This document shows positions 23,496 to 36,489 of a stretch of 64,000 bases of DNA, piece by piece. The notes beneath the pieces were generated by a model that saw only the letters and a program-made list of their open reading frames with translations, ran no database searches and was not told where the DNA came from. Positions within the stretch are counted from its first letter, which is position 1. Every line of letters begins with the position of its first letter. Source of the DNA: Meiothermus sp. Pnk-1 (GTDB lineage: Bacteria; Deinococcota; Deinococci; Deinococcales; Thermaceae); contig NZ_QKOB01000002.1 in NCBI RefSeq assembly GCF_003226535.1, positions 310,001 through 374,000 of the forward strand, in the 5' to 3' direction. A program made the position numbers and the translations under genes.

Positions 23496-24257
23496 TTAGG
23501 GCTTCAAGTGCTGATCGAGAAAAGCCACCACCGCTCTCGCGATGATCCGCCAGCCCTCGAGCTTCCCCACCGTCGCGGCTTGGTCGCCTGGCTGAGGGCC
23601 GTAGGCTCCATAGGAAGAGTGGTTGAAGCCCTCCAGAAAGCGCACTTCGGCTCCTTTGGGTAAGAGTCGAGCGCGCTGCCGAGCTTCTTCCGGCGGCAGC
23701 ACCCCGTCGTTTGAGCCGAAGAGGGCTAAGGTTGGGATAGTGCTGGCGCTTAGGTCCATCCGCGGGTATGCGGCGAACAGCACCAGCGCCCGGGCGCGGG
23801 AATCCTCCCCGGCAAAGGTGGAGGCGGCGACCCCGCCCACGCTGTGCCCACCCACCGCCCAGGCCAGCTCGGGGTGCGCGGCGATCGGCTCTTGGGCCTT
23901 GTTCTCGGCGGTGACGGCGAGGCCAAAGGGAACCCACATCAAAGCGACCCGGTAGCCGGACTCGGCGATCTGGCGCATCAAGGGGGCGTAAGCGGTGTAC
24001 TCGACCCGCCCGCCAGGATAAAAAGCCAAGCCCCCTTTGGGGGTGCCAGAGGGGATGAAGTCGTATCCGTAGCCGGTCTTCTGCACCCTCACCCGGGCGT
24101 CCGATTGCAGGGCCTGGGCCGCTTCGGGGGCAGCCGGGAGGGGGCGCAGGGCGAGCCATACGTATAGGGCCACCGCACCGGCCAGGAAGAACATCCCGCC
24201 AAAGAAGAACAGCCAGAAACGCTTGCCGACCACAGGAACGCGCTGAGGCTGGCTCAT
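23496..24257 (-). CDS. Membrane-anchored alpha/beta hydrolase
   Basis: A 253-aa protein with one N-terminal transmembrane segment (about residues 14-37, FWLFFFGGMFFLAGAVALYV) and an extracytoplasmic alpha/beta hydrolase domain. The nucleophile elbow is GGHSVGGVAA near residue 130, the acid is probably in ALFGSNDGVLPPEE near 182, and the histidine in EGFNHSSYGAYG near 213. The SSYGAYG ending resembles the dienelactone-hydrolase-like family of membrane-attached hydrolases. The ATG at 24257 gives a compact signal anchor; a frame 43 codons longer lacks protein-like character at its N-terminus. Substrate unknown. Confidence 0.8.
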   Translation of the reverse strand: MSQPQRVPVVGKRFWLFFFGGMFFLAGAVALYVWLALRPLPAAPEAAQALQSDARVRVQKTGYGYDFIPSGTPKGGLAFYPGGRVEYTAYAPLMRQIAESGYRVALMWVPFGLAVTAENKAQEPIAAHPELAWAVGGHSVGGVAASTFAGEDSRARALVLFAAYPRMDLSASTIPTLALFGSNDGVLPPEEARQRARLLPKGAEVRFLEGFNHSSYGAYGPQPGDQAATVGKLEGWRIIARAVVAFLDQHLKP

Positions 24258-24373
24258 CAAGCCCACCCCCGGAGACCCCCGCGCAAGCCACCCTCGAGTG
24301 TGTAACCTGTGGGTGCTCTGGGCCTGCGGACTGCTTCGCAATTGTAAACATCGCCGTTCGTGGCCGGGCCGCT

Positions 24374-24420
24374 GTAAACCGGCCATGCGCCGCGCCGTGG
24401 CGCGGGGTGGGGTGGTTTAC
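24374..24420. repeat. Composite inverted repeat between the hydrolase and RND genes
   Basis: Nested arms: GTAAACC at 24374-24380 pairs with GGTTTAC at 24414-24420; CCA at 24383-24385 pairs with TGG at 24408-24410; and CCGCGCC at 24390-24396 pairs with GGCGCGG at 24399-24405 across a two-base loop. No T run follows on either strand, so this is not a standard terminator. It may be a processing or regulatory hairpin at the end of the efflux operon, or a small element remnant. Confidence 0.55.
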
Positions 24421-24596
24421 AAAAGGGCACCCGCGTAGAAGACAAAGCCCCAGGTCTGTGGGAGCAGGTCCGAAAACTTACGAGCGCCGCGGGCAACGCG
24501 GGCTTGGATCTCGAGCTCGCCCGCCCGCAGCGCGCAGCGGAGGGTGAGGCGCAGCTTCCTCTGGTCGATGGGCTTGCAGGTGGCTGAGTCGCTTTC
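24417..24596 (-). pseudogene. Orphan coding frame after the RND gene, no visible start codon
   Basis: Directly after the RND stop, in another frame, 59 sense codons run to a TAA at 24417-24419. The reading has GC-rich third positions like its neighbours and includes RKLRLTLRCALRAGELEIQ and ends LPQTWGFVFYAGALL. No ATG, GTG or TTG opens this frame near the junction; the only ATG (24598) belongs to a different frame with poor protein character. It may be the surviving end of a frameshifted gene, or a small gene with an unusual start. Confidence 0.35.
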
Positions 24597-27500
24597 ATTC
24601 GCTTCCCATAGCGCCGGCCGGGGCCGGGGCGGGCCAGCGCTCCTGGCGCAGCTTCGCGTAGCGCCGCCGCTCGAATAGGTAAAATGCCGCCGGGACCACG
24701 AACAACGTCAGGAAAGTCGAGGTCGTCACCCCCCCCAGGATGATGATGCCCAAGGGCTTGCGGAACTCCGAGCCCTCCCCGCTGGACAGGATCAGTGGGA
24801 TGGAGATGATGAGCACGGTCAGGGTGGTCATCAGGATGGGGCGCAGCCGTAGCCGGGCGGCCTCCACCAGGGCGTCGAAGAGGGGCTTCTCCTGGGCTCG
24901 GCGCACCGCAAAGTCGAGCAGCAGGATGGCGTTTTTGGTGACCAGCCCGTTCAAGAGCACCAGCCCCAGCACGCTCACCACGTCCAGGCCGCTGCGAAAG
25001 ATGAATAGAGCCCAGAAAGCGCCCACCAAAGCCAGCGGGATCGGCACGAGCAGGTACAGCGGGTAGCGGAAGGTGTTGAACTGGCTAGCGATCACCAGGT
25101 AGTTGAGCAGCACCGAGAGCCCAAAAGCGATGGGCAAAGCCCCGAAGAGGTCCCCGGCGAAGGCGGTGCCACCGGTGCTCTCGAGCCGTACCCCGTCTTT
25201 GAGCACCCCTTGGCGCTCGAGCTCGCGCTGGATCTGCTGGCTGTACTGGAGCACCCCGCCGCTGGCCCCGGGGGCCAGGTTGGCGGTGATCCCGGCGGAG
25301 AAAGCTTGGTTGTTGCGGGCCAGGGTGGCGGGGCTCTGGCGGCTCTCGAAGCGGCTCAAGAGCGAAAGCGGGAGGGATTGTCGCAGGGCCTGAGAGAACA
25401 CCGGCAGCGATTGGAGCGCGCTTTGGTCAGGGATCAGGGCTGGGTCGGCCCTGACCACGATGGGAGTTTCCTCGCCCCCGGCGCGCAGCTTACCCGCCTC
25501 TACGCCGGCGTTGTAGATCCTCAGGGTCTGCGCCAGGTCGCTGGGGGTCAGGCCGGTGCCCACCAAGGCGGCTTGGTTGGGGACCAGCACCCGCTCGGCG
25601 GTCTTCTCGGACAGCGAGCTGCTGATGTTGGTGAGGGCGGGGATGCCCTTGAGGATCTCCAGCGCCCGGTCGTTGCGCTCCTCCAACAAGGCCTGGGTGG
25701 GAGCCGAGAGGGTAAACTGGAAGTCATCGCCGGCGGGCCCTCCCTCTAACGCTTTGACCTTGAGTTCGGCCTCGGGGTGCTTGGCCAGCAGGCCCTGCAA
25801 CGCGGCCTCGAGCTTGGGCACGATGGCGTAGATGTTCTCGCGCCGATGCCTCTCCACCAGGTTCACGGTCAGGTCGGAGCGCTCGGGGTTGCCGGTGCCG
25901 ATGCCGATGCTGGAGGCCCCCACCTCGGTCAGCACCTCCTTGACGTAAGGCTGGGCCAGCAAGTAATCCTCGAGGCGGCGGGTAAGCCGATCGGTCTCCG
26001 AGAGCGCGGTGCCTTTGGGCAGCTTGAGCTGGATGTTGATGATGCCGCCATCCGATTTGGGCGTAAAGTTGAAGGGAATCTGCGGGGCCACTACAGCTAT
26101 CGAAAGGAAGAAGAGGATCCCCGCCGCGAGCACCAGCGGGCTGCGCGGCAAAAGCCAGGCTAGACTCCGAGAGTAGCCGTTGCGTAGCCGGTCAAAGCCC
26201 CCCTCGGAGGCGCGGTGAAGGCTGAGGGCGATGGCCCCTAAGACGCTGCCCACCAAAGCCCCCAGCCAGCGCAAAGGGGCCAGCAGCAACCGCAGGGGGG
26301 TCAAGACGGCGTTGAGCAGCTTGGCCGAAGGCGGGTAGCGGGGGTCGCGGTAAACCTCCGCTCGGATCGCCCAGGCGAGGTCTTTCCCAAACTCCCGCGC
26401 CCGCTTTCCTACCTGTGACCACGAGGGCGGGATGGGGTCGGGCAGGTAAGCCAGGCGAACCGTGAGGAAGAAGAGGGCCTCGAGCCAGCTGAAGAAGATC
26501 GCCGCCGCCAGCACCAACCCGAACTCGCGGAAAAACTGCCCCACCACGCCCGGTAGGAAGCTGATGGGCAGGAAAACCGCCAACAGCGAGAGGGTGGCCG
26601 CCGATACCGCCGAGAGCACCTCGGTGCTGCCTTTGAGCACCGCGTCCTTGAGGCTATAGGGTTGGCTGAGGTAGGCCTCAATGCCTTCGGTAACGGTTCT
26701 TACGTCGTCAGCGGAGAGCAGATCGCCGCTCCCTTTGCTCACCGCCTCGTGCAGCGAATACCCCTGGCCCTGGTAGCGGGCGATGTGCTCGGTCAGGACG
26801 GCGGCGTCTTCGCGGGACAGGAATCCCTGGGTGGCCTTCATTACCGCATCGGGGAGGCTATAGTTCTGGTGGCGGTAGCGGTCGATGTTTTCCGCCACCA
26901 CAATGGAGTCGTCCACCACGATGCCCACCGCTACGATGATGGCGAGCAGGCTGATGATGTTGAAGGTGAAGCCCAACAGCCCAAAGATCAGCAAAGCCCC
27001 GGCCAGGGTAATGGGGATGGCCAGCACCACCGAGAACACCGAGTTGAGCTTGCCTAAAAAGATCAGCACGATGAACGAGACCACTGCGACCACCAAAAAA
27101 ACCTCTTTCCAGGTGTCGTTGACGGTGGCTTCGATGAAGGTGGTGGTGTCGTTGGTGACGCTTACCCGGTAGCCCGGAGGCAGGCTGGTATTGGCGAGGG
27201 TTTTCTTGATCCCTTGGGCCACCGCCACCGCGTTGGCGTCGGGGGTTTTGCGGACGTTCAGGAGTACGATGGGCTGCCCGGAGAGCCGGGTATAGCGAGT
27301 GGCTTCAGCCTGGCTATCGCGCACGCTGGCGACATCGGAGACTTTGAGCCCGCGCCCCGGATCCACCAGGATCTGGGCTACGTCCACGGCGCTCTGGGGC
27401 TGGTTGCGCAGGCTGTAGAGCAAGCGCTGCCCGCTTTGTTCTTGGCTTCCTGCTGGAACTGCTAGGGCCGAGGCCTGTAGCGCGGCCACCACCTGGTTAG

Positions 27501-28107
27501 CCGAGAGGCCGTAGTCGGCGAGTTTCCAGGGGTCCACCAGCACTTGGATCTGGCGTTTGGGGTTGCCCTCCACCTGGAGATCGGCCACCCCGTTTACCAG
27601 TTGCAAGCGGGGCTTGAGTTGGTTCTCTACCCAATCCGCCACGCTTCTGAGGTCGCGCCCCTCCGCCGAAACCGCCACGCTCAGGATGGGCTGTGAAGCC
27701 GGGTCGAACTTCTGCACCACCGGGGCCTCCGCGTCGCGGGGGAGCTGCCCGCGCACCGCCGCGATCCGCTGGGAAACGTCGGTGGCGGCTTGGTTTACGG
27801 AGGTGCCGTACTTGAACTGGGCGATCACCAAGGAGAACCCCTCGCTGGATTCCGAGGCGATCTGGTCAATGCCCGAGAGGGTCGAGAGGGCTTCTTCGAT
27901 AGGCTTGGAGATCTGGCTTTCCACCTCTTCCGGACCCGCGCCCGGGTAGGTGGTGCTGATAGCGACCACGGGAAACTCGAACTTAGGCAGCAGGTCTACC
28001 CCCAAGCTTCTGGCCGCCAGCAACCCAAACAGCACCAGCGCCAAAAACGCCGCGGTAGAGAAGACGAAGCGCTCGACGAAGAACTTGACGATGGGGCTTT
28101 CACGCAC
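24595..28107 (-). CDS. RND multidrug efflux permease (HAE1/AcrB-like) with triplicated loop
   Basis: A 1170-aa proton-driven inner-membrane pump, about 130 residues longer than AcrB. TM1 is at residues 11-32; periplasmic porter domains follow; TM2-TM6 begin at about 335. The proton-relay aspartate pair is in VGIVVDDSIVVAEN (residues 394-407). Immediately after it, residues 406-507 consist of three consecutive 34-residue units where the family has one. A second enlargement lies in the cytoplasmic loop before TM7 (about 555-650). The second half repeats the porter/TM plan and ends with a TM10-like GLVTKNAILLLDFAVR segment. It is the last gene of the efflux operon, 21 bases after the adaptor gene. 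Confidence 0.93.
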   Translation of the reverse strand: MRESPIVKFFVERFVFSTAAFLALVLFGLLAARSLGVDLLPKFEFPVVAISTTYPGAGPEEVESQISKPIEEALSTLSGIDQIASESSEGFSLVIAQFKYGTSVNQAATDVSQRIAAVRGQLPRDAEAPVVQKFDPASQPILSVAVSAEGRDLRSVADWVENQLKPRLQLVNGVADLQVEGNPKRQIQVLVDPWKLADYGLSANQVVAALQASALAVPAGSQEQSGQRLLYSLRNQPQSAVDVAQILVDPGRGLKVSDVASVRDSQAEATRYTRLSGQPIVLLNVRKTPDANAVAVAQGIKKTLANTSLPPGYRVSVTNDTTTFIEATVNDTWKEVFLVVAVVSFIVLIFLGKLNSVFSVVLAIPITLAGALLIFGLLGFTFNIISLLAIIVAVGIVVDDSIVVAENIDRYRHQNYSLPDAVMKATQGFLSREDAAVLTEHIARYQGQGYSLHEAVSKGSGDLLSADDVRTVTEGIEAYLSQPYSLKDAVLKGSTEVLSAVSAATLSLLAVFLPISFLPGVVGQFFREFGLVLAAAIFFSWLEALFFLTVRLAYLPDPIPPSWSQVGKRAREFGKDLAWAIRAEVYRDPRYPPSAKLLNAVLTPLRLLLAPLRWLGALVGSVLGAIALSLHRASEGGFDRLRNGYSRSLAWLLPRSPLVLAAGILFFLSIAVVAPQIPFNFTPKSDGGIINIQLKLPKGTALSETDRLTRRLEDYLLAQPYVKEVLTEVGASSIGIGTGNPERSDLTVNLVERHRRENIYAIVPKLEAALQGLLAKHPEAELKVKALEGGPAGDDFQFTLSAPTQALLEERNDRALEILKGIPALTNISSSLSEKTAERVLVPNQAALVGTGLTPSDLAQTLRIYNAGVEAGKLRAGGEETPIVVRADPALIPDQSALQSLPVFSQALRQSLPLSLLSRFESRQSPATLARNNQAFSAGITANLAPGASGGVLQYSQQIQRELERQGVLKDGVRLESTGGTAFAGDLFGALPIAFGLSVLLNYLVIASQFNTFRYPLYLLVPIPLALVGAFWALFIFRSGLDVVSVLGLVLLNGLVTKNAILLLDFAVRRAQEKPLFDALVEAARLRLRPILMTTLTVLIISIPLILSSGEGSEFRKPLGIIILGGVTTSTFLTLFVVPAAFYLFERRRYAKLRQERWPAPAPAGAMGSE
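26587..26892 (-). repeat. Three tandem 34-codon repeats inside the RND permease
   Basis: Units of residues 406-439, 440-473 and 474-507 share the pattern E-x-I-x-x-Y-x4-YSL-x-[DE]-AV-x-K-x5-LS, each exactly 34 residues. Only the third continues into the hydrophobic TM5 stretch; units 1 and 2 carry hydrophilic SREDAAVLT and SADDVRTVT at the equivalent place. Confidence 0.9.
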
Positions 28108-28128: not shown

Positions 28129-29358
28129 TCATCGGACCACCTCGAGCGCATCCCCCTCGCGCAGGCTAGCGGGGATGGGGAAGACCACCTGGCGGCCCGC
28201 CTCTAGACCGCGCAGCGCCACCTGATTGCCGTTATCGCCGAGGATCTGAACCTCCACTGCCTTGGCTCGACCGCCTTCTGCCAGCATCACCGCTGGCTTT
28301 TCTCCCGGCAGCAAAGCCCCGCTGGGCACGACCACCCCTTTGGCCAGCTCGAGGGTATAGCGCACGCTGGCGCTGGCCCCGGGCGGCAGGGGGGCTTGGA
28401 GGGTAGCTACCGCTTCCACCAGGCGGTCGGTGCCGGGGACTTGGCTGGTGCGGCTGAGGCGGGCGTAATAGGTCTGACCGCCGTAGTCGAGGTTCAACCC
28501 GCTTCCCAAGGCCAGCTTGGCCGCTTCCGAGGGAGGGAGGCGGAACTTGGCCTCGAGCCGGCGGACATCGGCCAGCCGGAACACCCGCGAGCCCGCCGCC
28601 ACGAACTCCCCGGGGTTGACGTACACCTCGGCTACCACCCCGGCGAAAGGGGCCCTGACCTCGGTGTCGGCTAAAGCGCGCCGGGCCTGGGCCAGTTGGG
28701 CTTCGGCCTGCTGGACCTGCACCCGCAACAAAGCCAAATCTTCACGGTTGGCCCGCTGGGCCCGCTCGAGCGCCTCGCGGGCGTTATCGGCATTGGACTT
28801 GGCCTGGCCCAGCGCGGCCTCCAGGCTGGTGAGGTCGACCTGGGCTATGGCCCCCGCCCGGAAGAGCTCCTGGCCTTCGCTATAGCGGCGCTGGGCCACC
28901 CGCAGGTTGGCCTCCGCCGCCTCGAGGGCGGCTTGCAGCGAAGCCAGGCTGCCCTGGTTGGAACGCTGCGCCCGCTCGAGGTTGATCTTGGCCTGTTCCA
29001 GCCCCAGCTCGGCGTTTTGTACCGCGGTGCGGGCGGTCGCGTCGTCGAGGCGCAGCACGATCTGGCCCGCCGCGACCCGGCTGCCCGCCTCGACCAGCAC
29101 CGCCAGCACCTTGCCGCTGGCGCTCGAGGCCACGTTGCTCTCTCGCGCCGGAGCCAGGGTGGCCCCCACGGTCCGGCTGGCCCTAAGGACGCCTTCCTTG
29201 GCCACTATCACCCGCACTTTGGTGACCCGGGGAGCGCTTTCGGCGCTCGCCGGGGTGGACTCGGCGTTTCCCCGACGGTTGTTACACCCCGCCAGCAACA
29301 CAGCGGCCACCGCGAGCAGAACCAGCGCCTTTAGCCGTTTGCGTTTGCTGCTTTGCAT
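28129..29358 (-). CDS. RND periplasmic adaptor (membrane fusion) lipoprotein
   Basis: A 409-aa HlyD/AcrA-family protein that bridges the inner-membrane pump and the outer-membrane channel. The signal peptide ends in the lipobox LLAGC at about residues 20-25, so the mature protein is probably lipid-anchored. It has the lipoyl halves (SASGKVLAVLVEAGSRVAAGQIVLRLD near 75, and VRAPFAGVVAEVYVNPGEFV near 235) flanking a long alpha-helical hairpin with many alanine/glutamine heptads, then beta-barrel and membrane-proximal domains. It starts two bases after tolC-2 and lies 21 bases before the pump gene. Confidence 0.93.
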   Translation of the reverse strand: MQSSKRKRLKALVLLAVAAVLLAGCNNRRGNAESTPASAESAPRVTKVRVIVAKEGVLRASRTVGATLAPARESNVASSASGKVLAVLVEAGSRVAAGQIVLRLDDATARTAVQNAELGLEQAKINLERAQRSNQGSLASLQAALEAAEANLRVAQRRYSEGQELFRAGAIAQVDLTSLEAALGQAKSNADNAREALERAQRANREDLALLRVQVQQAEAQLAQARRALADTEVRAPFAGVVAEVYVNPGEFVAAGSRVFRLADVRRLEAKFRLPPSEAAKLALGSGLNLDYGGQTYYARLSRTSQVPGTDRLVEAVATLQAPLPPGASASVRYTLELAKGVVVPSGALLPGEKPAVMLAEGGRAKAVEVQILGDNGNQVALRGLEAGRQVVFPIPASLREGDALEVVR

Positions 29359-29360
29359 GG

Positions 29361-30419
29361 CTAGCGCCCCCCAGCATACAACCCGTACAGGGCGCGCAAG
29401 TAACTCCCCTGGGCTTGCAGGGCCGCCAGCTCCGCTTGCAGGGCGGCCAGCTCGGACTGGGCATAGGCCAGCGGGGAGATCAACCCCGAGTCGAGCCGGC
29501 GCTTATCGGCGGCCAGCTGCTCCCGGGCGTTTTGCAGCAGGGATTGCTGGATTCCCAGGGCCCGAAAGGCGTTTTGGGCCTGGGTATACAGGTTCTCATA
29601 CTGCAAGCTTAGCCCCCGGCGGATCTCGCGCAGGGCGGCCTCAGCCTGCTCGGCGCGGGCTTTGGCGGCTTCGATCTCGGCTTGGGCGGCGTAGCTGGGG
29701 TCGAGCAGCTCGAGCTGTAGCTTGGCCAGCTCGAGCCGTTGCTGGGCCTGCACCAGGTCCGGGGTTTGCTCGAGCAGGCTCTGTAGCAGGCTCCGCTCGG
29801 GCAGGGCTGGGGCTGGGGGAAGCGGGGCCAGCTCCGCGAACTCCCCTACCAAGCTGCGCAGGTTGCTGCGGGCGTTGGCCAGCCCCTGCTCGGCGAAGGC
29901 TTGGTTGCGCTGGGCGTCCTCCAGGCGGGCTTGGGCGTTTTTGCTCTCGAGCGCGGTGCCGGAACCGTTTTTCTGACGGATCTGGGCTACTTCGAGGTTA
30001 CGCTGGGCCAGCTCGGTGGACTTCTTGGCGAGCGCTACCTGTTGGAGGGCCTCGAGGACCTGGGTATAGGCCTGCACAATGCCGCTTTCGGCTTGGGCTT
30101 TGGCCCGGTTCAGGCTGGCCTGAGCCAGCGCCAGGCGCTGCTCGGCCTGGAGCCGCGCTGGGCGGGTCAGCAGGGGGTCGGCCAGGGTGCGTTGAAGATT
30201 GGCCTGGGCGTCGGCGAGTTCAGCTTGGGCGCTTTGCACCGGGGCTTGCTCGGCGGCCTTAGCCAGGGCGGCTTGGAGGGTGAGGGGCTGGGTCTGCTGC
30301 GCCAGGCCGGCGGCCAGCAGGGGGAAGCAGAAAACCAGCACGAGCTGACGGGGCGCGAACCGCACGGCTGGCGTTGGCTGCCGGTGTTCGATCTGGGCCG
30401 TTGGGCGTCGAGTATGCAT
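29361..30419 (-). CDS. TolC-family outer membrane efflux protein, second copy
   Basis: A 352-aa outer-membrane-factor homologue. An extended signal peptide (hydrophobic core LVLVFCFPLLAAGLAQ around residues 26-41) precedes alanine/glutamine/leucine-rich coiled-coil helices, arranged as two similar halves (the pattern AxxxxxAQAxLxxAxA recurs). It is shorter than TolC (about 470 aa) and shorter than its neighbour. The ATG at 30419 shares a base with the TGA of the upstream tolC (TGATG), indicating coupled translation. It may form mixed trimers with the neighbour or provide an alternative exit duct; this is inference. Confidence 0.85.
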   Translation of the reverse strand: MHTRRPTAQIEHRQPTPAVRFAPRQLVLVFCFPLLAAGLAQQTQPLTLQAALAKAAEQAPVQSAQAELADAQANLQRTLADPLLTRPARLQAEQRLALAQASLNRAKAQAESGIVQAYTQVLEALQQVALAKKSTELAQRNLEVAQIRQKNGSGTALESKNAQARLEDAQRNQAFAEQGLANARSNLRSLVGEFAELAPLPPAPALPERSLLQSLLEQTPDLVQAQQRLELAKLQLELLDPSYAAQAEIEAAKARAEQAEAALREIRRGLSLQYENLYTQAQNAFRALGIQQSLLQNAREQLAADKRRLDSGLISPLAYAQSELAALQAELAALQAQGSYLRALYGLYAGGR

Positions 30420-31759
30420 CACTTCACCTCGCTAAGGGGCAGGGCATAAAAGCGGTAGAGGTCGAGAAGGCGGGAGAGCCGGTTGAGGCTGGCTTGCTCG
30501 AGCGCAAGCCGGGCTTGGGCCAGCCCCAGTTCGGCCTGGAGGGTGGCCAGGGGGCTGGCGAGCCCCAGCCGTTCGCGTTCGCGGGCTTCGGCCAGGGTGC
30601 GCTCGGCATCTTGCAGGGCGGTTTGCGCCAGCCCTACCTGGGCCTCAGCCCCCTGTAAGGCCGATCGTAGCGAAGCTTCTTGCAAAGCGGCGGCGCGCTT
30701 GGCCGCCTCCAGGGCGGCCTGGGCCGCTTCGATCTGCTTGCGTCCAGCCTCCAGAGCGTCGAAGATGGCCGGGCTGAGGTTCACCGAAAGCCCGATCTGG
30801 AACTGGCTTTCCGGCTTTACCTGCCCGGTGGTGGTCGTAGGGGGGTTTTGATAGCTGTAGCCGACTTGGGGTTGCAGGGTGCGGCTGTTGAGGCTCAGGC
30901 TGAAGCTGTCGCGGGGCGAGGTGTTGTAGGTGTAGCTGGCCTGGGCCACCGGCCAGATGCCTCGCTCGGCGCGGGCGTAGTTGAGCTGGGCCTGCGCCAC
31001 TTGCAGCTCGGCCTGACGGACGCTAGGGGGGGTGACGGCTAGGGGAGGAGGGGGCTCGGGCAGCGCCCCCAGGGCTGCCGTTCCCAGCAAGTCGCTGAGG
31101 TTGCGCTGGGCTAGCTCGAGGTTGCGCTCCGCGTCTTCCACCTGGAGTTGGGCCTGGCGCAGCTGGGCCTGGGCCTGGCGCACTTCGGCGGGGCTGGCGG
31201 CCTCGCGCTGGGCGCGCAGCCGCACCGCCTCCAAGCTGGCTTGAGCCAACCGGGCTCCGCTTTGGGCGACTTCCAGCCCCACCTGGGCCAGCCGCACCCG
31301 GTAGGCCGCCTCCAGGGCCTGGGCCTCGAGGCTGGCCTGGGTTTGGCGCAGCCCCAAGGCGGCCTGCTCGACCCCCAGCCGGGCCTGGGCGATGGCGTCG
31401 GCGGTATCGCCGAAAGGAAAAGGGGTGAAGGCCAGCCCCACCGAGGCGCTTACCGCCTGGGTGTCGGGGATGGGGTCTTTAAAATGGAGCCAGGCGTTAC
31501 CTCCTTGGGCTTGCAGGCTCACCGGACTCTGCTGCGCCCGCAGCTGGGCTTGGGCAGCCTCGAGCGCCAGCCGGGCCTGGACGAGCGAGGGATGGTTTTG
31601 CAGCGGGGCGTAGAAGCTCTGCCCCAGGCCGCAGGCCAAAAGCTGGATGCCGAAAGCCAGGACAAAGGAAGGCGTACGTCGTACCCTATAGGCTCGTTGC
31701 TTTTCGACGCAAGACCTAGGACGTACGACGTATGGCGCGAATGCCCTGATCGCCCTCAC
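30419..31759 (-). CDS. TolC-family outer membrane efflux protein, first copy
   Basis: An outer-membrane channel protein of about 446 aa. A hydrophobic signal core (SFVLAFGIQLLACGLGQ) is followed by two repeats of helical hairpins, with short barrel segments around QASYTYNTSPRDSFSLSLN and QIGLSVNLSPAIFDAL. The probable start is the GTG at 31759, which overlaps the marR stop as GTGA. That makes the first 26 or so residues an arginine-rich extension encoded by a copy of the dispersed repeat at 31671-31740. No ATG, GTG or TTG start closer to the signal core is visible. It is translationally linked to marR upstream and to tolC-2 downstream. Confidence 0.83.
   Translation of the reverse strand: MRAIRAFAPYVVRPRSCVEKQRAYRVRRTPSFVLAFGIQLLACGLGQSFYAPLQNHPSLVQARLALEAAQAQLRAQQSPVSLQAQGGNAWLHFKDPIPDTQAVSASVGLAFTPFPFGDTADAIAQARLGVEQAALGLRQTQASLEAQALEAAYRVRLAQVGLEVAQSGARLAQASLEAVRLRAQREAASPAEVRQAQAQLRQAQLQVEDAERNLELAQRNLSDLLGTAALGALPEPPPPLAVTPPSVRQAELQVAQAQLNYARAERGIWPVAQASYTYNTSPRDSFSLSLNSRTLQPQVGYSYQNPPTTTTGQVKPESQFQIGLSVNLSPAIFDALEAGRKQIEAAQAALEAAKRAAALQEASLRSALQGAEAQVGLAQTALQDAERTLAEARERERLGLASPLATLQAELGLAQARLALEQASLNRLSRLLDLYRFYALPLSEVK
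31671..31740. repeat. Fragment of heptad repeat element inside the tolC N-terminus
   Basis: It contains GGCGTACGTCGTAC at 31671-31684 and 7-bp units ACGCAAG, ACCTAGG, ACGTACG, ACGTATG from about 31707 to 31734. These match units in the intergenic elements at 37.4 and 39.2 kb. Unlike those copies it is read through as codons. Confidence 0.65.
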
Positions 31760-32202
31760 TCCTTCACCGCCTGGGGTTCCAACAATTTCCGATAGCTCTT
31801 GCACAGCATCTCGATCTCCTTTGAACTGAGGCGGGAATACCGCTCCCGCCAGACTTCCCGCCAGCTCTTGCGCAGCCGCTCGAGGAAAGCCCGGCCTTCC
31901 TCGGTGAGCAGTATGCGTACCTGCCTTCGGTCTTTGCTGTCCAGCTCGCGGCGTACCCAGCCCCGTTCCTCCAGCCCGGCCAACAGCTGAGAGACCCCCG
32001 AGGGCGAAACGTCCAGCACGAAGGCCAGGCTCGAGGGCTGCTCGATTCCCTCCCGCACCGACATCAAGGCGAAGGCCTGCATTGGCGAAATGCCTAAGGG
32101 CTCAAACGCCCGCTGCTGGTCAATCCGGAACTGCCACACCAGCCGCAGGGTGAGCCGTTCCAGGGCGTCCAAGGCAGCGTCGCTGAGATACTTCATACGC
32201 AT
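31756..32202 (-). CDS. MarR-family transcriptional regulator
   Basis: A 148-aa winged-helix DNA-binding protein, heading the efflux operon and therefore its probable local repressor. The helix-turn-helix is at about residues 54-82 (QPSSLAFVLDVSPSGVSQLLAGLEERG), the wing has the family signature DSKDRRQVRILLTEEGRAFLERL at 88-110, and N- and C-terminal helices provide the dimer interface. Two in-frame ATGs (32202 and 32196) are possible; a TAATAT box nine bases before 32196 favours the second. The start region is covered by a 22-bp palindrome suited to autoregulation. Confidence 0.9.
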   Translation of the reverse strand: MRMKYLSDAALDALERLTLRLVWQFRIDQQRAFEPLGISPMQAFALMSVREGIEQPSSLAFVLDVSPSGVSQLLAGLEERGWVRRELDSKDRRQVRILLTEEGRAFLERLRKSWREVWRERYSRLSSKEIEMLCKSYRKLLEPQAVKE

Positions 32203-32759: not shown

Positions 32760-32856
32760 GCAGGCTTGACGCGTGGCTGTTTGGCCTACGACGTCAGTAA
32801 AGCCCGATGCCCCCCAAGTTATCGGTGCACTAGGAATTCTTAGCCTGAAGATGTAC

Positions 32857-32862
32857 TATACT
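32857..32862 (+). promoter_or_regulatory. -10 box TATACT of gfh1
   Basis: A near-consensus -10 hexamer about 100 bases before the gfh1 start; no clear -35 box stands out at the expected distance. It implies an untranslated leader of roughly 90 bases containing the hairpin at 32913-32947. Confidence 0.45.
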
Positions 32863-32912
32863 GCCTTAGGATTGCTTTGTTGGTTTGGACTGTCTTTCGC
32901 TAACACAGCGAC

Positions 32913-32947
32913 AGAAGCCGTATCAGGCCCCAGCGGATGGGGCTTCT
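32913..32947 (+). promoter_or_regulatory. Hairpin with alternative pairings in the gfh1 leader
   Basis: GCCCCA (32927-32932) pairs with TGGGGC (32938-32943). AGAAGCC (32913-32919) could instead pair with GGCTTCT (32941-32947), sharing three bases, so the two full stems exclude each other. It ends just before the GGAGGG ribosome-binding sequence at 32953-32958. Confidence 0.4.
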
Positions 32948-32961
32948 TAGTTGGAGGGACG

Positions 32962-33438
32962 ATGGCACGTGAAGTCAGGCTAACCCGCGACGGGTACGAG
33001 CGGCTCAAGCGGGAACTCGAGCAAGAGCGCGCTCGCTTACAAGACGCAACCCGCATCCTACAGGAGCTGATGGAGTCCTCCGACGACTACGACGACTCGG
33101 GGTTGGAGGATGCCAAACGGGAGAAAGCCCGTATCGAAGCCCGGATTGATTCCCTCGAGGACACCCTCTCGCGGGCGGTGGTGATCGAAGGGGCCCAGGA
33201 AAAAGGGGTGGTGACGCTAGGGGCCATCGTCACCCTCAAGGCCCGGGAGGGCAAGGGGGAGCAGATGGAGGTCCAGGTAGTTTCCCCCGCCGAAGCCAGC
33301 GTGTTGGAGCACCCGATGAAGATCTCCGACGAGTCGCCCATGGGTAAAGCCCTCCTGGGCCGGAAATTGGGGGAGACGGTGCACCTGGAAAGCCCCAAAG
33401 GACACCGCGAGTTCGAGGTGATCTCGGTCAGGAACTAG
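32962..33438 (+). CDS. gfh1: Gfh1, Gre-factor homologue and RNA polymerase inhibitor
   Basis: A 158-aa protein with the GreA two-domain plan: an N-terminal coiled coil (residues 1-75) and a C-terminal globular domain. In Thermus, Gfh1 inserts its coiled-coil tip into the polymerase secondary channel and inhibits all catalytic activities instead of stimulating cleavage. The diagnostic tip is [13 protein letters not shown] near residues 37-49, with four aspartates; GreA has DLRENAGYDEA there (see 36010). The C-terminal [15 protein letters not shown] is shared with GreA. GGAGGG lies upstream of the ATG at 32962. It is known only from the Thermus lineage, which supports the taxonomic reading. Confidence 0.93.
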
Positions 33439-36009: not shown

Positions 36010-36489
36010 TTATTTGTACGTCAACTCTACGATGGTGTAGCTCTGTACGCCCTTGGGGCTGGGGTACTCCACCCGGTCCCCTACCTTCTTGCCCATCAGG
36101 CGTTGGCCCATGGGGGATTCGTTGGAGATCTTGCCGTTGAACACATCTGCCTCGTGGCTTCCCACGATGGTCAGACTCATGCGTTGGCCTGAGTCGGTCT
36201 CGAGCTCCACGCTCACCCCTAAGCCCACCTCTAGCGGGGTACCGTTGCCGGCCTCTACCACCACGGCCCGGGCCAAGATGCTCTCGAGTTCGCTGATTCG
36301 CCGGTCGTTGTCCCACTGTGCCCGCCGAGCCTCGTCGTAACCAGCGTTCTCGCGCAGATCGCCCTCCTCGATAGCCTGTTCGAAAGCAGCGGCAATCTCT
36401 TGGCGCTTGACCGTCTTGAGGGTGGTCAACTCATCCTGCAAACGCTTCAAGCCTTCAGCGGTCAGGTAGACCGGTTTATTCTGCGACAT
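36010..36489 (-). CDS. greA: Transcription elongation factor GreA
   Basis: A 159-aa GreA that rescues backtracked RNA polymerase by stimulating RNA cleavage. The coiled-coil tip carries the catalytic acidic pair in the classical DLRENAGYDEARRAQ segment (near residue 44). The C-terminal domain has FNGKISNESPMGQRLMGKKVGD, the FKBP-like fold signature. It and Gfh1 at 32962 compete for the same polymerase channel, so both the activator and the inhibitor are encoded within 4 kb. A GGAG sequence lies upstream of the start. Confidence 0.95.
   Translation of the reverse strand: MSQNKPVYLTAEGLKRLQDELTTLKTVKRQEIAAAFEQAIEEGDLRENAGYDEARRAQWDNDRRISELESILARAVVVEAGNGTPLEVGLGVSVELETDSGQRMSLTIVGSHEADVFNGKISNESPMGQRLMGKKVGDRVEYPSPKGVQSYTIVELTYK

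Follow-up and report, generated by a model that had tools for sequence, protein, structure and literature searches.

The loop between TM4 and TM5 is nearly constant in length in RND drug pumps, and TM4 bears the proton relay. The window (the whole stretch of 64,000 nucleotides of Meiothermus sp. Pnk-1 DNA analysed here) encodes a pump in which this loop has been described as triplicated; this is a correct observation of an uncommon arrangement. It raises the questions of where the additional residues come from and why they are kept. A lineage that retains a folded insert of 68 residues at this site could provide a natural test of the freedom that exists at the cytoplasmic mouth of the proton path, and would be a clear example of how a membrane protein can give rise to a small soluble domain by duplicating, internally, a segment of its own. 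We consider it probable (roughly 0.6) that this is an ordinary tripartite RND drug pump carrying a cytoplasmic helical domain made from its own sequence, and that this domain is a structurally constrained, tolerated extension.

The RND permease and its three-unit array

The permease gene (24595..28107, minus strand) encodes a protein of 1170 aa of the AcrB/HAE1 type (PF00873). The Pfam model ACR_tran revealed similarity along the whole length of the ORF (E 1.4e-208, above the curated cut-off), and the AF2 model of the pump has the overall AcrB fold, matching the structures of AcrD, AcrB and MdtB (Foldseek E ~1e-62; target TM-score 0.82-0.90). The 14 NCBIfam matches, mostly RND models, were all below their curated cut-offs, and the pump was therefore not placed in any named subfamily of that library (AcrB, MdtB, MdtC, AcrD, OqxB or CusA; e.g. 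NF033617, 667 against a cut-off of 1250). The protein contains Asp399 and Asp400 in TM4 (26908..26913, minus strand), which are invariant in 35 pumps, as well as the Lys of the motif TKNAILLLDF and the Arg of LRPILM. We take the two aspartates to be the counterparts of Asp407/408 of AcrB, and the Lys and Arg to be the relay residues of TM10 and TM11, respectively. With the relay residues and all other parts present, the pump would be expected to perform proton-driven transport as in AcrB.

The pump resembles permeases of the AcrB/MdtB/CmeB-type HAE1 group (PF00873, TIGR00915, NF033617) in its full-length fold, the Asp-Asp pair of TM4, the Lys and Arg of TM10 and TM11, and an operon with MFP and OEP genes. 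It differs from them in the TM4-TM5 loop, which is 68 residues longer, and between TM6 and TM7, where ~60 more residues are present; the latter are common to other Thermales pumps. Normal length of the TM4-TM5 loop is a usual trait of the family and no formal criterion of PF00873; the long loop makes this pump a variant, without excluding its membership of the RND family.

The stretch between TM6 and TM7 (aa 557-635; 26203-26439, minus strand) is partly hydrophobic and ~60-70 residues longer than in two proteobacterial pumps. The measured stretch comprises 90-118 residues in nearly all Deinococcota pumps (67-68 in two order-level relatives) compared with 39-42 in the two proteobacterial ones. 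It is the least conserved part of the pump and might contain an additional membrane-associated hairpin.

Three gapless units of 34 residues (aa 399-432, 433-466 and 467-500; 26608-26913) are located between the Asp-Asp pair of TM4 and TM5, and read DDSIVVAENIDRYRHQNYSLPDAVMKATQGFLSR, EDAAVLTEHIARYQGQGYSLHEAVSKGSGDLLSA and DDVRTVTEGIEAYLSQPYSLKDAVLKGSTEVLSA before TM5 follows. The original prediction had placed them at 26587-26892, a position that describes the same array but is displaced by 21 bp from the phase of the Asp-Asp pair. Its description of an AcrB-type pump with three segments of exactly 34 residues agrees with the Pfam and AF2/Foldseek results and with the scores of the units against shuffled sequences. 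Each pair of units shares 15-17 of 34 residues, with BLOSUM62 scores of 67-76, which none of 100,000 shuffles reached for any pair. Moreover, in a self-alignment of the region an offset of 34 scored 69, and all other offsets from 20 to 59 at most 10. At the DNA level the units are identical at only 57-61 of 102 positions (56-60%), with third positions being least similar, and for this reason repeat finders operating on DNA detected nothing in the array, which is visible at the protein level only. This low identity also indicates that the duplication is old, and that slippage can no longer change the copy number by simple means.

Unit 1 (26812..26913, minus strand) comprises the native end of TM4 followed by a copy of the loop and the start of TM5 that has lost its membrane character. 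Unit 2 (26710..26811, minus strand) is entirely an extra copy, of soluble character, and unit 3 (26608..26709, minus strand) consists of an extra copy of the TM4 end and the native loop leading into TM5. Native TM4 accounts for the opening half of unit 1 and native TM5 for the closing half of unit 3, so that the net gain is 68 residues, corresponding, according to PDB alignments and the AF2 model, to aa 413-480 (26668..26871, minus strand). The best Kyte-Doolittle 19-mer of this insert scores 0.34, as against 2.5 in TM4 and 2.2 in TM5, which is too low for a membrane helix. Units 1 and 2 lack the hydrophobic end, as had been claimed, and only unit 3 leads on to the hydrophobic TM5. Echoes of the Asp-Asp pair are seen in unit 2 (ED) and unit 3 (DD), whereas the hydrophobic residues have been replaced.

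Distribution of the array and its operon context

In searches of 50 Thermaceae genomes and of 111 Deinococcota genomes, full-length matches with the triple array were found in five: that of the window, G001 (same genus), G002 (a second genus), and G005 and G011 (a third genus). It had been proposed to check whether the repeat number varies. The copy number is fixed, as all five pumps have three 34-residue units, with one more residue in unit 2 of G011, so that the insert is 68-69 residues long. A second RND pump encoded in the window's own genome has a single unit, and so do the other Meiothermus and Thermus pumps that occupy the same place in the operon. In a careful tree, constructed with the loop region left out of the alignment, the five triple pumps form one clade (support 99/99; 98% of bootstraps), with the single-unit Meiothermus pumps as its sister group; an earlier quick tree gave the same result. 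The comparison with pumps of other Thermales, suggested as a means of dating the duplication, points to a single origin at the base of this five-pump clade. One old origin, in the ancestor shared by a lineage of Thermaceae pumps, is the simplest account of the sequence data; the assignment of the lineage to the Thermaceae follows from a Meiothermus record in that tree, L036. G001 is presumably Allomeiothermus (Meiothermus) silvanus, and from the genus names that we infer for the numbered genomes, the triple lineage would comprise Allomeiothermus, Calidithermus and part of Meiothermus.

The single-unit orthologues of Meiothermus (e.g. L046, L047 and L053; ~65% identical to the window's pump) and Thermus (L048 and L054; ~55%) share its operon order (MarR-OEP-OEP-MFP-RND-hydrolase), but differ in having one TM4-TM5 unit instead of three. 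The orthologues of G001, G002, G005 and G011 have the three units at the same site, and differ from the window's pump in their inserts, which are 37-88% identical to its own.

In the window, the HlyD and OEP genes adjoin the RND gene on the same (minus) strand, forming a tripartite operon. At its head, in a conserved order, is a probable MarR-type regulator (31756..32202), followed by the first OEP (461 aa; 30419..31804), a second, short OEP (353 aa; 29361..30422), and a membrane-fusion protein of the HlyD/CusB type, also supported by synteny (28129..29358). We presume the regulator to be of the MarR type from its sequence. The make-up of the operon is the same in G001 and in single-unit Meiothermus and Thermus, and mostly the same in the remaining triple genomes. 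The MFP and OEP genes of G002 match in pieces only, and the contig of G011 begins inside the operon. As the single-unit pumps have the same operon, no additional partner gene arrived with the insert.

Several features of this neighbourhood deserve mention. An alpha/beta hydrolase gene (Abhydrolase_5; 23496-24386, minus strand) comes after the RND gene, a position that it retains in nearly all of the Thermaceae operons examined, and it may therefore belong to the pump operon. The pair of adjacent OEP genes (29361-31804, minus strand) is conserved in Meiothermus and Thermus, and possibly provides a mixed or divided outer-membrane channel. Further away, two ORFs that, judging from the ORF list, look like transcription factors of the GreA/GreB type (32773-33438, plus strand, and 36010-36489, minus strand) flank a lysyl-tRNA synthetase-like ORF.

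Predicted fold of the insert and selection acting upon it

A structure prediction of this region had been recommended, and it yielded a confident soluble four-helix unit, both within the pump and alone. In the AF2 model of the full pump, based on 35 aligned pumps of which only five sequences carry the insert, TM4 (384-413) and TM5 (486-515) are separated by helices at 418-425, 432-447, 452-459 and 466-481, with pLDDT of ~82-88 across the insert. The same four helices were predicted for an isolated fragment of 78 aa with five aligned sequences (pLDDT 85, pTM 0.70). The two extra units are thus predicted to form a four-helix soluble unit, short-long-short-long, which is made up of two helix-turn-helix hairpins and lies between TM4 and TM5 on the cytoplasmic side. 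Foldseek detected no significant similarity of the insert to folds in the PDB (best E 0.88), and comparisons with Pfam, NCBIfam and PDB sequences gave chance-level matches only. We accordingly do not claim a known binding domain (e.g. MerR or EF-hand) in this region.

The rate of evolution of the insert is about twice that of the remainder of the pump, yet it is under purifying selection. Its mean pairwise identity is 0.53, compared with 0.73 for the rest, and 7% of 68-residue windows are lower. For the closest pair of triple pumps dN/dS is 0.07 in the insert and 0.09 in the rest, for G005-G011 it is 0.20 and 0.09, and for deeper pairs 0.4-0.7 and 0.2-0.3, all of these values being rough because dS is high. 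The invariant positions of the insert mostly correspond to the ancestral motif E-x-I-x-R-Y...G/Y-S...A-V, which is expected if the packing of the hairpin is what is conserved. Faster evolution combined with conserved positions of the ancestral type fits structural constraint at least as well as it fits regulation or the binding of a partner.

The original prediction had suggested that the insertion might regulate the pump or bind a partner. On such an explanation, a cytoplasmic partner or ligand would bind the helical knob and tune proton coupling or assembly. Small proteins such as AcrZ tune AcrB in this manner, although their binding sites are within the membrane. The modulation of RND pumps by small proteins provides a precedent (PMC10710835), and a regulatory or docking role might also account for the autonomous and confidently predicted fold, the conserved length, the purifying selection and the location of the insert directly beneath the proton-relay helix. 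Moreover, a length of 68-69 residues kept across several genera, and a constraint in the closest pair similar to that of the rest of the protein, are more than a merely tolerated extension needs. However, the insert is less conserved than ~93% of windows of equal size (37-43% identity between the two sub-lineages), it contains no recognisable ligand or partner fold, and the operon has no extra gene compared with those of single-unit pumps. We therefore regard a regulatory or docking domain as possible but doubtful. Its fuller version, in which intragenic triplication of the relay-helix end and loop created a domain that senses or transmits something where the proton path opens to the cytosol, seems to us somewhat less likely still.

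The evidence agrees somewhat better with a tolerated, structurally constrained extension than with a domain for regulation or docking. It is most likely as such an extension that the added unit has been retained; it would be held by its own packing against the ends of TM4 and TM5, and its effect on the stability or coupling of the pump would be at most modest.

Other possible sources of the extra residues

A long TM4-TM5 loop could instead be a common feature of RND families, the finding that had been named as decisive against the original prediction. We found no point in support of this, and consider it very unlikely. With the best PDB relatives, alignment extends to aa 413-427 of the pump and, in the alignments examined, resumes at 485-489. 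The gap, from aa 413-416 to 485-489, skips 68-72 residues, which also bears out the placement of a 68-residue insertion in the cytoplasmic loop after the relay aspartates. Searches with the insert gave no match in the phylum of Komagataeibacter (398 genomes) or in that of Mesohalobacter (296 genomes; 694 in both). We also surveyed loop length with AcrB-like TM4-TM6 queries in 40 and 41 genomes of these phyla (81 in all), a sample of the RND families outside the Deinococcota, with ~150 matches listed for each. None of the ~300 listed matches contained a large insert: nearly all begin at the first residue of the query, with 88-96 residues covered over 261-300 bp, and had an insert of tens of residues been present, these matches would have been interrupted or longer. 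One match that ends earlier is a truncated ORF. The distance from the Asp pair to the proline motif of TM5 is 47-48 residues in 54 fetched loci and 52 in two, as against ~115 in the window's pump, the remaining distances reflecting a motif missed by the search pattern. A segment common to many RND families was looked for in the PDB, the 694 genomes and the ~300 pumps, and not found. The literature on RND loops or Meiothermus pumps yielded nothing on this insert, and a tblastn search of plasmids gave no match.

The extra residues derive from the native segment of the pump, as had been claimed. A profile HMM of this segment was built from 37 distinct single-unit RND sequences, and each unit of the five triple pumps was scored separately. 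It gave 40-57 bits for unit 1, 26-33 for unit 3 (E 1e-9 to 1e-7) and 14-31 for unit 2 (E 3e-9 to 8e-4), and in the window's pump E values of 6e-8 for unit 2 and 1e-9 for unit 3; the best score among 266 reported shuffles was 5.5 bits. As every unit is recognised on its own, the extra 68 residues are tandem self-copies. This largely refutes the highly improbable explanation that a foreign domain was inserted and resembles the native segment by chance, which might be suggested by the folding of the insert as a unit and its difference in character from the flanking membrane helices. The exact period of 34 residues and a GC content equal to that of the gene also speak against it, and the insert of a close relative, taken alone, matches the MdtB model precisely at the TM4-TM5 junction (positions 404-440), albeit weakly (E 0.14). 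An artefact of assembly or reading frame, for which no supporting point was found, can be dismissed, since the same array is present in five independent assemblies of differing divergence and its units have diverged. In the course of events that we favour, a segment of 102 bp (34 codons), comprising the end of TM4, the cytoplasmic turn and the start of TM5, underwent two in-frame tandem duplications, on a single occasion in the ancestor of the lineage.
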